In this document: piece after piece, positions 17,957 to 21,604 of the stretch
How positions within the stretch are numbered: position 1 is the stretch's first letter
How the letters are laid out: every line of letters starts with the position of its first letter
DNA from: Lachnospiraceae bacterium
GTDB lineage: Bacteria > Bacillota > Clostridia > Lachnospirales > Lachnospiraceae
Assembly (NCBI GenBank): GCA_017387565.1
Contig: JAFOEY010000002.1
Span: 1 to 37,960, forward strand
Length of the DNA stretch: 37,960 nucleotides
Reading direction: 5' to 3'
Position numbers and translations under genes: made by a program
The notes under the pieces: generated by a model
The model's database searches: none
Told to the model about the DNA's origin: nothing
Seen by the model: only the letters and a program-made list of their open reading frames with translations

Positions 17957-19429
17957 CTATATGATAATGCAGACAATTCCACCGTTGGTATCATTAACGA
18001 TTTTCTGCATGGAATCCTGTAATTTCAGTTGGCTTTCATCTCCAATCATGGTTAATTTGTTCTGTATACCGTCTTCCACCAACTGTTCAATACTTTTGCC
18101 GAAAATATTGGTCTCCCAAATGCTTCCGTTTTCATTATCAGCAGCTTCAATATAGGAAATCAGATCTTCAGCCTGCTGTTTGGTGCCCACAATCGGAGCA
18201 ATTTCTGTCTCGATATTTGCTTTGATCAAATGAATGGAAGGACTTTCCGCTTTCATTTTTACACCATATTTATTACCATGCTTAATAACCTCCGGTTTTC
18301 CGAGTGTAATTTCATCACGTGTCGGTTTCATGACTCCATATCCCTTTTGTTTCACCATGGTAATCGCCGGAACAACACCTTCATAAGCCTTTGCCGTTTC
18401 ACTCAGTTCTTTCATTTTTTCAAACAACTGGTATTCTGAGTGAATTTCTTCTCCGAGAATATCACTGATTAATTCATAATAGCAGTCATCCGTAATGGTC
18501 ACATCAATTTTAACACTTCCATCTGCCATATTAATGGAATCCGTTTTACACTTCTTTATGTAATCTCCGGAAAGTACAAGCGGTTTATTCACAATATCTT
18601 TCATGCAATGGTATTCATTCATCTTTTCCTTAAGCTGTGCTGTTAAATCCATCTTTAACGGATGGGTGGAAGGAAGCATTTCCACAAATCCCTGCATATA
18701 AAATTCAATTCTGGAGATTGGAAATTCCAATAAAATCTGATATAACAGCGTTTCCATGTCTTCTTTTTTCAACTGTGCCAAGTTCATGGGAAGCGCTGTA
18801 ACCTGATACTTATCAGATAGTTTTTGGGCAAGTAAAACCGCTTCTTCAGACTGCGGTCTTTGTGAATTAACAAGTACAATAAACGGTTTTCCAAGTTCCT
18901 TATATTCCTGTATGGTCCGCTCCGTTGCAGGAATATAGTTTTCTGCCGAAATATCTGTAAAACTGCCATCCGTTGTAACAACAACGCCTATAGTAGAATG
19001 GTCATAGATTACTTTCTGTGTGCCGATTTCAGCTGCCTTGGTAAATGGAATCTCCTCATCAAACCATGGTGTTTTGACCATTCTTTCTTTACCGTTTTCC
19101 ATATGTCCGCTTGCGCCCTCTACCATATAACCGACACAGTCAATCAGACGCACTTTCACATCGACCTGATCATCTAATTTGATGGTTGCTGCTTCCTTCG
19201 GCACAAATTTCGGCTCTGTTGTCGTGATGGTCTTACCTGTCGCAGATTGTGGCAGTTCATCAACCAAAAGTTGTTTTAAATAATCGTCTTCCATATTGGG
19301 AAGCACACATGTATCAATAAATCTTTTAATAAACGTCGATTTTCCGGTCCGAACCGGTCCGCCAACGCCCAGATACAACTCTCCGCCCGTACGTACTTTT
19401 ATATCATTGTATAACTGATCATTGTCCAT
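17957..19429 (-). CDS. spoIVA: Stage IV sporulation protein A (coat basement ATPase)
   Basis: The 490-residue protein is SpoIVA, which binds and hydrolyses ATP to polymerise into the base layer of the spore coat on the forespore surface. The Walker A motif is GGPVRTGKST (23-32). The conserved TITTTEPKFVP region and the LIDCVGYMVEGA GTPase-like G3 region follow. Length is typical. The ATG follows directly on a terminator U-tract, with AAGGGGG 7 nt upstream as ribosome-binding site. A sigma-E-type promoter (19458-19486) lies across that terminator, matching the mother-cell timing known for this gene. Confidence 0.97.
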   Translation of the reverse strand: MDNDQLYNDIKVRTGGELYLGVGGPVRTGKSTFIKRFIDTCVLPNMEDDYLKQLLVDELPQSATGKTITTTEPKFVPKEAATIKLDDQVDVKVRLIDCVGYMVEGASGHMENGKERMVKTPWFDEEIPFTKAAEIGTQKVIYDHSTIGVVVTTDGSFTDISAENYIPATERTIQEYKELGKPFIVLVNSQRPQSEEAVLLAQKLSDKYQVTALPMNLAQLKKEDMETLLYQILLEFPISRIEFYMQGFVEMLPSTHPLKMDLTAQLKEKMNEYHCMKDIVNKPLVLSGDYIKKCKTDSINMADGSVKIDVTITDDCYYELISDILGEEIHSEYQLFEKMKELSETAKAYEGVVPAITMVKQKGYGVMKPTRDEITLGKPEVIKHGNKYGVKMKAESPSIHLIKANIETEIAPIVGTKQQAEDLISYIEAADNENGSIWETNIFGKSIEQLVEDGIQNKLTMIGDESQLKLQDSMQKIVNDTNGGIVCIII

Positions 19430-19479
19430 AAAAAAACCCCCTTGTATATACTTGTAAAATATATGCAGGGGGTTTTTTT
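19430..19479. terminator. Terminator whose 3' arm is the spoIVA RBS
   Basis: A7C5 (19430-19441) and G5T7 (19468-19479) form a stem, extended by an inner TGTATAT/ATATGCA pairing. It can terminate in both directions. For leftward RNA from the VWA gene, the C5 arm comes first, the G5 arm is the spoIVA Shine-Dalgarno and the U7 run ends at the nucleotide before the spoIVA ATG. Confidence 0.88.
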
Positions 19480-19486
19480 ATTATTC
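19458..19486 (-). promoter_or_regulatory. Sigma-E-type promoter of spoIVA
   Basis: On the minus strand GAATAAT (19480-19486) matches the sigma-E -35 (KMATAWW) at all positions. After exactly 14 nt, CATATATT (19458-19465) matches the -10 (CATACAWT) at 7 of 8. The predicted start (about 19451) lies in the loop of the terminator, after its 5' arm. B. subtilis spoIVA is known to be sigma-E dependent. Confidence 0.75.
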
Positions 19487-19496
19487 ATGTAGTTTT

Positions 19497-20705
19497 CTAC
19501 TTTTTCCTCATCAATTCAACCATGGCACGATTTAAACCGTCTATGGATAAAAAGTACATGGGAATAATCGTCTGAATGGCGGTTTCCGCTTCACGCCATG
19601 GTGCCGGCGCCGGTGCCATTTTCGGATTCATCCAGACTATTTTTTTATAATGCTTTTTCATCTGTAAAAGCCATTCCCAACCGGACAATCCTCCGTTGGG
19701 TCCCCGGTAATTTCCGGTTTCTGAATACAGTTCTTCCGGTGCCATAGCCGCATCTCCAATGATTAATACCTTATAATCACTGTCGAGATTTCGGAACATC
19801 CATTCCGTATCCACCCATTCACCGTTTTCACATTCCGGCGTCTTATATACTTTGGAATAAATACAATTATGAAAGTAATAGCATTTAACATCCTTAAAAT
19901 GATTAGATTTATTGACAGCCTTGAATAATTTTGCCATCAAATCCGTATAAGGGATCATGGTACCACCAGAATCCATCAGAAGCAACAGTTTTACAGCATT
20001 CTTACGGGGTTTTTCCATGACAATCTGAAGCATACCTCCATTGTTGCAGGTCTTGTCAATGGTACCATCAATATCTAACTCTGTCTTGGGGACATCCAAA
20101 CGTGTGGAATACTGACGCAACTTTCTAAACGCTGCCATAAACTGTCTGTTATCAATGACCTTATCATGTCTGAAGTCACGATACTTTCTGGCACCGATAA
20201 CTTCAAAAGCACTCTGACCACCGGGAGCCCCTCCGACGCGGATACCGCCGATAAAATTACCGGAATTACCAAATGCGGTTTTACCCATGGTGCCGATCCA
20301 GAAATTACCACCGTTATGTTCACTGTCCTGATCGCGTAAACGTTCACGGAATTTGGTTTCTACCTCTTCTTTATCGACCTGTACGGTATCCTGTTCGGTA
20401 TCCAGCCATTTTTTCTCCTCTTTTTCCAAAAGTGCCTTCATATCTTCGGATTTATCCAGCCACCGCATCATTTCCGCTCCGACTTCCGTATCTTTTTGCA
20501 CGCCTTTGAAATGCTCTTCAAATGCCATGTCAAATTTATCAAAATCGGTTTCGGACTTGACCAAAATACTGCGTGACAGATAATAGAAATCTGTAAGGGA
20601 ACTATGCGCCATCCCCATATTTAACGCCTGTTGTAAGGTCAGCCATTCGGTCAGGGATACATCTAATCCTTTTGCTTTTAACTCGTAAAAGAACTCAATG
20701 AACAT
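19497..20705 (-). CDS. VWA-domain (CoxE-like) protein
   Basis: The 402-residue protein has a C-terminal von Willebrand factor A-like domain. Its metal site is partly degenerate: LLLMDSGGTM has Asp and Ser-x-Gly-Gly in place of the canonical DxSxS. It resembles the CoxE/COG3552 partners of MoxR ATPases. Together they are thought to act as a chaperone pair that remodels or activates a protein or metal centre. The start overlaps the MoxR gene's end by 11 nt, indicating translational coupling. No target gene is obvious; spoIVA follows but is behind a terminator. Confidence 0.85.
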   Translation of the reverse strand: MFIEFFYELKAKGLDVSLTEWLTLQQALNMGMAHSSLTDFYYLSRSILVKSETDFDKFDMAFEEHFKGVQKDTEVGAEMMRWLDKSEDMKALLEKEEKKWLDTEQDTVQVDKEEVETKFRERLRDQDSEHNGGNFWIGTMGKTAFGNSGNFIGGIRVGGAPGGQSAFEVIGARKYRDFRHDKVIDNRQFMAAFRKLRQYSTRLDVPKTELDIDGTIDKTCNNGGMLQIVMEKPRKNAVKLLLLMDSGGTMIPYTDLMAKLFKAVNKSNHFKDVKCYYFHNCIYSKVYKTPECENGEWVDTEWMFRNLDSDYKVLIIGDAAMAPEELYSETGNYRGPNGGLSGWEWLLQMKKHYKKIVWMNPKMAPAPAPWREAETAIQTIIPMYFLSIDGLNRAMVELMRKK

Positions 20706-21507
20706 AATGTTTTACTGTCTCCAAATCTTCATCTTTTTTCACAACTACACCAACAAAAGGTAATGCTTTTTTAATGGTATCCGGATCAATACCGTTAAGC
20801 TGAAGTGCATTAATCCAGTCAATCAACTCGGATGTACTGGGTTTTTTACGAATATCACGAATAGAGCGGATTTCATAAAAAACATCCATAACATTTTTTA
20901 ATAAGTTTTCTTCCACATTGGGATAATGCGTTTTTACAATCTCTTCCATTAAATCCTTGTCCGGAAATTCAATATAATGGAAAATACAACGTCTTAAGAA
21001 AGCATCCGGTAATTCTTTTTCCGCATTAGATGTAATAATCACAATCGGTCTGTGTTTGGCTTTTACGGTACGCTTGGTCTCATGGATATAAAATTCCATC
21101 TGGTCAAGCTCCCATAATAAGTCATTGGGAAACTCCAAATCCGCTTTATCAATTTCATCAATCAGCAAAACGACCTGATCATCTTCTTCGAAAGCCTCTC
21201 CAAGTTTTCCAAGCTTGATGTAGCGGGCAATATCATCAACGCCCTCTTCACCGAACTGACCGTCATAAAGACGCTGAATGGTATCATACATGTAAAGACC
21301 ATCCTGCGCTTTTGTCGTTGACTTAATATTCCAGATAATCAATTTTTTCCCTAAGGAATTGGCTACCGCTCTTGCTAACATGGTTTTACCGGTACCGGGC
21401 TCTCCTTTGATTAACAACGGCTTTTGTAATGCAATTGCCACATTCACACTGGCAAGCAATTCATCACTTGCTACATAATCGGTCGTTGACTGAAAATTGT
21501 TTTCCAT
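20695..21507 (-). CDS. MoxR-family AAA+ ATPase
   Basis: The protein has Walker A GEPGTGKT, Walker B VVLLIDEIDKAD, sensor ITSNAEKELPDAFLRRC and the MoxR lid. The frame is open to 21603, but AAAGGAAAC lies 4-8 nt before the ATG at 21507 (MENNFQS), so I use that start, giving 270 residues. MoxR ATPases work with VWA proteins, and one is encoded directly downstream with an 11-nt overlap. The role is unknown. Confidence 0.9.
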   Translation of the reverse strand: MENNFQSTTDYVASDELLASVNVAIALQKPLLIKGEPGTGKTMLARAVANSLGKKLIIWNIKSTTKAQDGLYMYDTIQRLYDGQFGEEGVDDIARYIKLGKLGEAFEEDDQVVLLIDEIDKADLEFPNDLLWELDQMEFYIHETKRTVKAKHRPIVIITSNAEKELPDAFLRRCIFHYIEFPDKDLMEEIVKTHYPNVEENLLKNVMDVFYEIRSIRDIRKKPSTSELIDWINALQLNGIDPDTIKKALPFVGVVVKKDEDLETVKHYVH

Positions 21508-21575
21508 ATCTGTTTCCTTTCTATCTCCATGGTATTTTTCTCTCATTTTGCACACACCAAACAGTTCACATCCGT

Positions 21576-21604
21576 TTGCAATGCATTTAATTACATGATA
21601 CAAT
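21576..21604 (+). promoter_or_regulatory. metF promoter
   Basis: TTGCAA (21576-21581), a 17-nt spacer and TACAAT (21599-21604), with TG one base before the -10, form a good vegetative promoter 46 nt upstream of the metF start. No S-box or other riboswitch is seen between it and the gene. Confidence 0.7.

Follow-up and report, generated by a model that had tools for sequence, protein, structure and literature searches.

The leader of spoIVA in this Lachnospiraceae bacterium appears to be a promoter set inside a terminator, an arrangement that would insulate the gene against transcription reading through from the gene upstream; we put the probability of this reading at about 0.78. The window, that is, the whole stretch of 37,960 nucleotides that was analysed, carries this leader on its minus strand, where about 50 nt would serve at once as terminator, promoter, Shine-Dalgarno (SD) sequence and spacer. 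The parts of the leader, the difference in folding between long and short transcripts, the covariation of the arms in relatives and the dependence on the neighbouring gene were all computed, and overall they point to a real and conserved leader, functionally suggestive of read-through silencing fused with a terminator.

According to the mechanism that we propose, polymerase coming from the upstream gene would transcribe both arms, the hairpin would form, and most transcription would end at the U-tract before the ATG; in read-through RNA that escapes, the SD is locked in the stem of the computed fold. In the mother cell, polymerase carrying sigma-E would use the -35 and -10 boxes that flank the 5' arm and start inside the hairpin. 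Because the 5' arm is then not transcribed, the sporulation RNA would escape both termination and masking, leaving its SD free. Termination is, we infer, the better-supported half of this mechanism, because the T-run and the hairpin vary together; masking of the SD in vivo would follow from the geometry and would silence RNA that escapes termination, and by comparison alone the two halves cannot be separated.

Architecture of the spoIVA leader

The leader lies between spoIVA and a co-directional upstream gene (Table 1). The first-pass annotation had described a C5 arm and a G5 arm, had taken the latter for the spoIVA SD with a U7 run directly before the ATG, and had placed the C5 arm in the spacer of a sigma-E-type promoter. 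Re-reading of the minus strand returned exactly the same arm coordinates, the SD and the U7 run were found as described, GAATAAT, 14 nt and CATATATT with C5 in the spacer were confirmed base by base, and the identity of spoIVA is borne out by a profile match above the curated cut-off. Sigma-E promoters have a -35 box and a CATAnnnT-type -10 box at a fixed spacing. The string GAATAAT-14-CATATATT is of this type, and the resemblance to the motif suggests that the leader is used by sigma-E. PMC517825 gives 12 ± 1 bp between longer blocks for sigma-E promoters, and has sigma-E turning on B. subtilis spoIVA and SpoIIID turning it off. In another member of the Lachnospiraceae, C. phytofermentans, transcription starts have been mapped in cultures grown on sugars, plant polymers and corn stover (PMC5171806); spoIVA is not mentioned in the portion of that source that was covered.

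The promoter string is unique in the 2.9-Mb genome. A looser pattern, CATANNNTN{8,38}GGRGGN{4,11}ATG, gave 41 rows in the same genome (18 for the reversed pattern), among which, by eye, only spoIVA (7 T) and one other site (L130 on G000:C26, 6 T) have at least six T directly before the ATG. No 5' arm is visible at L130, and spoIVA is the only gene found with such a leader in its own genome.

Table 1. Features of the spoIVA leader and the flanking genes, in window coordinates
Feature	Position	Strand	Basis
spoIVA, downstream gene, 490 aa	17957..19429	-	TIGR02836, 598 bits (curated cut-off 460)
spoIVA start codon ATG, abutting the U-tract	19427..19429	-	sequence
U7 tract: terminator-like tail and SD-to-ATG spacer	19430..19436	-	sequence
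G5 (AAGGGGGU): spoIVA SD and 3' arm of the hairpin	19437..19441	-	sequence; paired in the folded long RNA
Predicted transcription start region, in the loop or inner 3' stem	19449..19453	-	inferred, 5-9 nt past the -10
-10-like CATATATT, sigma-E type, within the hairpin	19458..19465	-	sequence; relatives with similar boxes
Promoter spacer, 14 nt, equal to the 5' arm of the hairpin (A7 C5 TG)	19466..19479	-	sequence; folds with the SD arm
Sub-parts of the spacer: A7, C5, then TG	A7 19473..19479; C5 19468..19472	-	sequence
-35-like GAATAAT	19480..19486	-	sequence; family consensus GG[AC]ATAA at the same spacing
Terminator-like hairpin over promoter spacer, -10, SD and U-tract	about 19428..19481	-	RNA fold
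Co-directional upstream gene, VWA-like in the first-pass annotation	19497..20705	-	NF041121 match far below cut-off
AAA ATPase gene (MadB-like, below cut-off), upstream of the VWA-like gene	20695..21603	-	profile match

Folding of long and short transcripts

Folding of both transcripts, which the first-pass annotation had proposed as a check, gave the expected difference. The long minus-strand RNA forms one hairpin (-27.6 kcal/mol, z -6.5) whose stability none of 200 shuffles reached, and this stem, with its C5/G5 core followed directly by U7, has the form of an intrinsic terminator; two RNAs begun inside the hairpin are no more stable than shuffles (z +0.90 and +0.67). A generic promoter and terminator scan of the window, confined to loops of at most 8 nt, did not report the hairpin, and an Rfam scan of 18500-20500 returned four matches at E<=1, none of which reached its gathering score. 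Across family leaders, the SD is paired with a probability above 0.8 in 88 of 107 long RNAs and in four of 98 short ones, the mean pairing being 0.86 in long, 0.42 in short and 0.68 in shuffled RNA. By folding, then, the SD is paired only in RNA derived from upstream, as proposed for sigG of B. subtilis.

Pairing probability was dropped as the sole evidence: even when the upstream sequence is dinucleotide-shuffled, a G-rich SD finds a partner in 45% of trials, and a single fold therefore carries little weight. The length of the helix, permutation of the arms and the class of the neighbouring gene were considered as well. It is the conservation of the leader design in relatives that goes beyond chance.

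Conservation across the Lachnospiraceae

SpoIVA was matched in eight of the nine genomes of the genus that were searched (its own genome counted) and in 103 of 150 genomes of a family sample. Of 580 relatives in a scan of named genomes, the best 80 are mostly titled Lachnospiraceae, the nearest among these 80 being Lachnospiraceae bacterium isolate RGIG8498 with a SpoIVA identity of 100%. Leaders could be read in 107 genomes, one for each, eight from the genus and 99 from the rest of the family; two loci without a start region (G050, G128) are not among them. A position table of the leaders with pairing of at least 0.7 gives the -35 consensus GG[AC]ATAA at a near-constant distance from the -10, and the conservation of the letters of the -10 is partly built in, as the program that picks it seeks CATA.

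The cross-genome comparison of arms, -35 and -10 that the first-pass annotation had called for shows the two arms covarying: the arms, which are the promoter spacer and the SD, vary between genera yet remain complementary, and the -35 holds its position. SD and 5' arm form an unbroken helix of 5 bp or more in 79 of the 86 leaders that lie behind a co-directional gene without a separate terminator, and in none of the other seven; the 79 comprise 73 distinct arm pairs. With their own partners the arms of the 86 leaders form helices of 8.47 bp on average, compared with 5.71 bp when the 5' arms are permuted, and none of 10,000 permutations reached 8.47. This permutation test supersedes a ranking of swapped arms in short windows, which was weak (the cognate arm was best or tied in 22 of 107). 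An alignment of 52 standard leaders (A1) misaligns arms of differing register.

Variants of the arrangement were seen by eye. In L033 and L011 the 5' arm lies farther upstream, which puts the promoter in the loop. In L239 (1905-1975) there is an upstream terminator instead, with a -35-like GCATATT in its loop and a T-run that abuts the -10; L239 and L242 thus present an alternative weave, in which a -35-like box sits in a terminator-like loop, the T-run is next to the -10 and the SD is left free.

Dependence on the neighbouring gene

An insulator would be needed only where a co-directional neighbour threatens read-through, and this is where the design appears to be kept; behind a separate terminator or beside a divergent gene it falls to chance level. 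Counting an SD as paired when it pairs with sequence upstream of the -10 at P>=0.7, pairing is found in 79 of the 86 leaders that follow a co-directional gene and lack a separate terminator, in three of the eight that have such a terminator and in two of the ten beside a divergent gene (Fisher tests, ignoring kinship: 1.9e-6 for co-directional against divergent, 6.6e-4 for co-directional against separate terminator). As shuffling of the upstream segment gives 45%, 39% and 23% pairing in the co-directional, separate-terminator and divergent classes, chance is exceeded in the first class only. Unbroken helices of 7 bp or more occur in 71/86, 2/8 and 2/10 of these classes, compared with 17%, 21% and 7% of shuffles. 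The last 8 nt before the start hold on average 5.19 T in the 86 co-directional leaders and 2.70 in the ten divergent ones (P 7e-5).

Assignment of the neighbours required some care. Calls by the longest ORF alone proved unreliable owing to antisense ORFs, which also misled blast-based callers (kept for L275 only). All 14 neighbours first called divergent were checked against Pfam. Ten were confirmed, with matches to Fe hydrogenase, homocysteine methyltransferase, HAD hydrolase, PTS, cation efflux, LysR, MTHFR, radical SAM (weak), chloride channel and a GH85 C-terminal domain; the four without a Pfam hit, three of which are paired, were reassigned to the 86 co-directional leaders (L071, L089), to the eight with a separate terminator (L087) or to the unclear cases (L012). 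Without this reassignment the counts, by a slightly different measure, are 80/86 and 6/14 (P 3e-5). Most co-directional calls stand on ORF length, six having been checked with Pfam (L020, L021, L032, L038, L097, L100), and three leaders with an unclear neighbour (L040, L046, L012) were excluded from the two-by-two counts on the 107.

The first-pass annotation had held that related genomes keeping the promoter without the hairpin would speak against its reading. Such leaders do occur, 21 of the 107 being unpaired, and most of them fit an insulator: eight have a divergent neighbour and five a separate terminator, 13 in all that are as the insulator predicts, while seven are co-directional and one is unclear. 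An example from the same genus is L005, where a divergent metF (MTHFR) adjoins spoIVA and the C arm and U-tract are degraded, G5 and a -10-like CATATCTT being kept. Among the seven co-directional exceptions, a stem with a T-run that the script had missed was seen by eye upstream in L021, L032 and L091, and none in L020, L050, L088 and L100. Exceptions of the other kind are L109, which has a divergent neighbour yet a strong hairpin, and L075, whose neighbour is also divergent and whose pairing of 0.90 comes about by another pairing. The parts, coordinates and logic of the first-pass reading are supported, and the comparison adds that the design extends through the family and is found at further sporulation genes.

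A second set was drawn from 75 named loci, of which a duplicate and a locus with too little upstream sequence were dropped, leaving 73 (L230-L234, repeats of the first set, were not used). Pairing at P>=0.7 is found in 65 of the 73. A simple ORF caller named 14 neighbours divergent, 11 of them at paired leaders; Pfam confirmed a divergent gene at L298, L281, L285 and L287, of which L285 (0.73) and L287 (0.94) are paired and the others unpaired, and homology gave one at L275, which has no pairing. A co-directional gene was found with Pfam at L245, L253 and L295, and some 565-590 nt away at L259 and L309; there were no Pfam hits on either strand at L276 and L288, and none on the minus strand, the only one scanned, at L266 and L268. 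As the simple caller is unreliable and few divergent neighbours are Pfam-confirmed, the second set confirms the frequency of the pairing and not its association with the neighbour.

In the window, metF is separated from spoIVA by the VWA-like and MadB-like AAA ATPase genes (19497-21603), a pair that is absent in L005. By eye, the gap before spoIVA in L003 and L004 holds short ATGAATCATG-like repeats at about 1370-1450, which the window does not have.

The same leader at other sporulation genes

In relatives, the leader is also found before spoIIID, cwlD, spoIID, sipL, yabP, cotS, sigK and others. The pattern CATANNNTN{8,38}GGRGGNNTTTTN{0,4}ATG has matches in 68 of 100 family genomes, and 29 of the 30 loci listed for it were re-found. 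Five of the 29 have a helix of at least 9 bp between SD and upstream sequence, before spoIVA (L207), a D-Ala-D-Ala carboxypeptidase (L208), an amidase weakly like CwlD (L209), a ClpP-family protein (L219) and a membrane protein that looks SpmA-like (L206); the SpmA/SpmB-like proteins of L206 and L312 had no Pfam or NCBIfam match at 1e-5. A helix of 8 bp is present at three (spoIVA at L205, CotS at L221, and L204), and shorter ones lie mostly before genes that do not look like sporulation genes (e.g., galE), and also before YabP (L216, interrupted stem).

Arm-specific patterns, each searched in 150 genomes, were found in 57 genomes for CCTC...GAGG and 61 for CCCC...GGGG. Of 60 loci listed, 58 were re-found, and 34 have an ORF of at least 45 aa beginning within about 14 nt of the T-run. 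Eight of these are spoIVA and 15 others match models named for sporulation, nine above the curated cut-off (sigK, five spoIIID, one cwlD, ylmC/ymxH and cotS) and six below it (four cwlD, dpaA and yqfC). Two more, a D-Ala-D-Ala carboxypeptidase (L330) and a protein with SpoIID and peptidoglycan-binding domains (L345), are cell-wall proteins likely to have a role in sporulation. The remaining nine are galE, a TIGR04086 membrane protein, an M23 peptidase, a VanY-type carboxypeptidase, two without assignment (L343, L371) and three ORFs of 50-53 aa without a match. The control with a permuted -10, TACANNNT, was found in 17 of 150 genomes, and eight of its 23 rows are really GCATACA sites; among five other ORF-bearing sites, the three scanned gave no sporulation family (the other two ORFs have 46 and 54 aa).

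Further cases were picked by hand: SpoIID, a SipL-domain protein, and a SpoVAD cut by the end of its stretch, where GAATA lies 18 nt upstream of CATACTA, a spacing and sequence that we take to be sigma-G-like. For the 30 best loci of each of two genes, which were not hand-picked, pairing was found in 20 of 30 for spoIIID and, more weakly, in eight of 27 for cwlD (three of its 30 had no usable start), both counts being without a shuffled control. In the own genome, the spoIIID (L420, 0.67) and cwlD (L460, 0.27) leaders are below the pairing threshold. A separate site, L211 at about 1500 on the minus strand, has by eye a CobQ-like gene with its SD under a hairpin downstream of CATAnnnT; this hairpin is possibly the expression platform of a riboswitch unrelated to sporulation.

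These distributions make it fairly likely that the Lachnospiraceae reuse the leader as an insulator across the mother-cell, and partly the forespore, regulon, gaining it behind a vegetative gene and losing it when the neighbour changes. The design would probably evolve easily, because an SD with its U-rich spacer already makes up one half of a terminator, the 3' one, and the other half can come from the unconstrained promoter spacer. If so, the silencing of scattered sporulation genes that lie behind other genes would be explained without any dedicated space. Its sequence would also provide a rule by which sporulation genes could be recognised in gut bacteria that have not been cultured, neighbour orientation would serve as a natural experiment on what selection keeps in leaders, and synthetic biology would gain a compact insulator.

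Precedents and alternative explanations

Hiding the ribosome-binding site of read-through RNA has precedents. In the transposase gene of Tn10/IS10, as in the spoIVA leader, read-through RNA folds over the start region and RNA from the proper promoter does not have the 5' arm; to our knowledge, this system of a mobile element, unlike the spoIVA leader, makes no use of a terminator or a developmental switch. In late genes of phage T4 such as e and soc, the ribosome site is buried in a hairpin of the early RNA, and a late promoter inside that hairpin yields translatable RNA; this serves the timing of phage genes, and we know of no fusion with a terminator or dependence on neighbour orientation there. 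Intrinsic (rho-independent) terminators share with the leader a G+C-rich stem core followed by a U-tract; the leader differs from them in having a promoter, SD and start codon built in. The closest precedent is B. subtilis sigG, like spoIVA here a sporulation gene behind another operon: according to PMC5942855, translation of its read-through RNA would be blocked by a large hairpin, which cannot form in the PsigG RNA, and misexpression of sigG without four dampening features, of which the large hairpin is not one, harms growing cells. The word "terminator" does not appear in the main text of that source, and the spoIVA leader is unlike sigG in its U-tract, its 5' arm that is the promoter spacer, its dependence on neighbour orientation and its recurrence at other genes. 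No published description of a sporulation promoter inside a terminator was found among titles and abstract openings, in a search that covered the subscription literature thinly. What is new, then, is the fusion with a terminator, the neighbour-dependent conservation and the reuse across a regulon; the translational half already has precedents.

Two of the alternatives keep one half of the proposed mechanism and discard the other. The hairpin could be only the terminator of the upstream gene, overlapping promoter and SD by chance in a compact genome and with no role for masking of the SD; U-tract and hairpin both track neighbour orientation, and a terminator upstream of the promoter can replace the hairpin (in the separate-terminator class and in L239), as this explanation would have it. 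We nevertheless consider it unlikely, since 79 of 86 leaders, almost every one from a genus of its own, pair their SD with the 5' arm, though a terminator could sit elsewhere, and since the same kind of overlap recurs at other genes. Conversely, the hairpin could act on translation as at B. subtilis sigG, hiding the SD of read-through RNA, with termination incidental. The SD is indeed paired in the long RNA and freer in the short one, and sigG provides the precedent (PMC5942855), but masking needs no U-tract, and yet the T content drops together with the hairpin when the neighbour is divergent, which makes termination as a mere by-product rather improbable.

The other alternatives place the function elsewhere. 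An inverted repeat might be a DNA operator, for example for SpoIIID, which binds and shuts off spoIVA in B. subtilis (PMC517825); arms that differ between genera but remain complementary (73 distinct pairs in 79 leaders), and a presence that tracks neighbour orientation, make this very improbable. An SD-sequestering hairpin with a U-tract also resembles an expression platform, and the leader might be a riboswitch or attenuator on RNA started upstream, although promoter-like elements lie inside the hairpin and no Rfam family reaches its gathering score in 18500-20500; we give this little credence.

Leaders outside the family

Outside the Lachnospiraceae, 54 spoIVA leaders were read in further families of the same order and class (the first-listed loci, with family members removed). 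Of these, 10 (19%) have a helix of at least 7 bp, compared with 4% of shuffles, which is above chance; U-tracts are rare, with a mean of 2.81 T in 8 (n=54).

The searches also turned up interrupted sporulation genes. In nine genomes outside the family (G217, G190, G175, G256, G264, G327, G401, G287 and G355), spoIVA is split at about residue 402-411, its halves lying 6 to 90 kb apart or on separate contigs, which looks like a recurrent skin-like intervening element. Likewise, at G032:C52, G036:C12 and G063:C158, two parts of spoIIID (about residues 1-45 and 27-83) lie some 3.5 to 17 kb from each other, which looks like an excisable element in a sporulation gene; G032 has an additional, more distant full copy of spoIIID. 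At G128:C109:36949-36994 there is a hairpin of the same type that matches in both directions, and SpoIVA aligns there for residues 153-490 only, with one stop.
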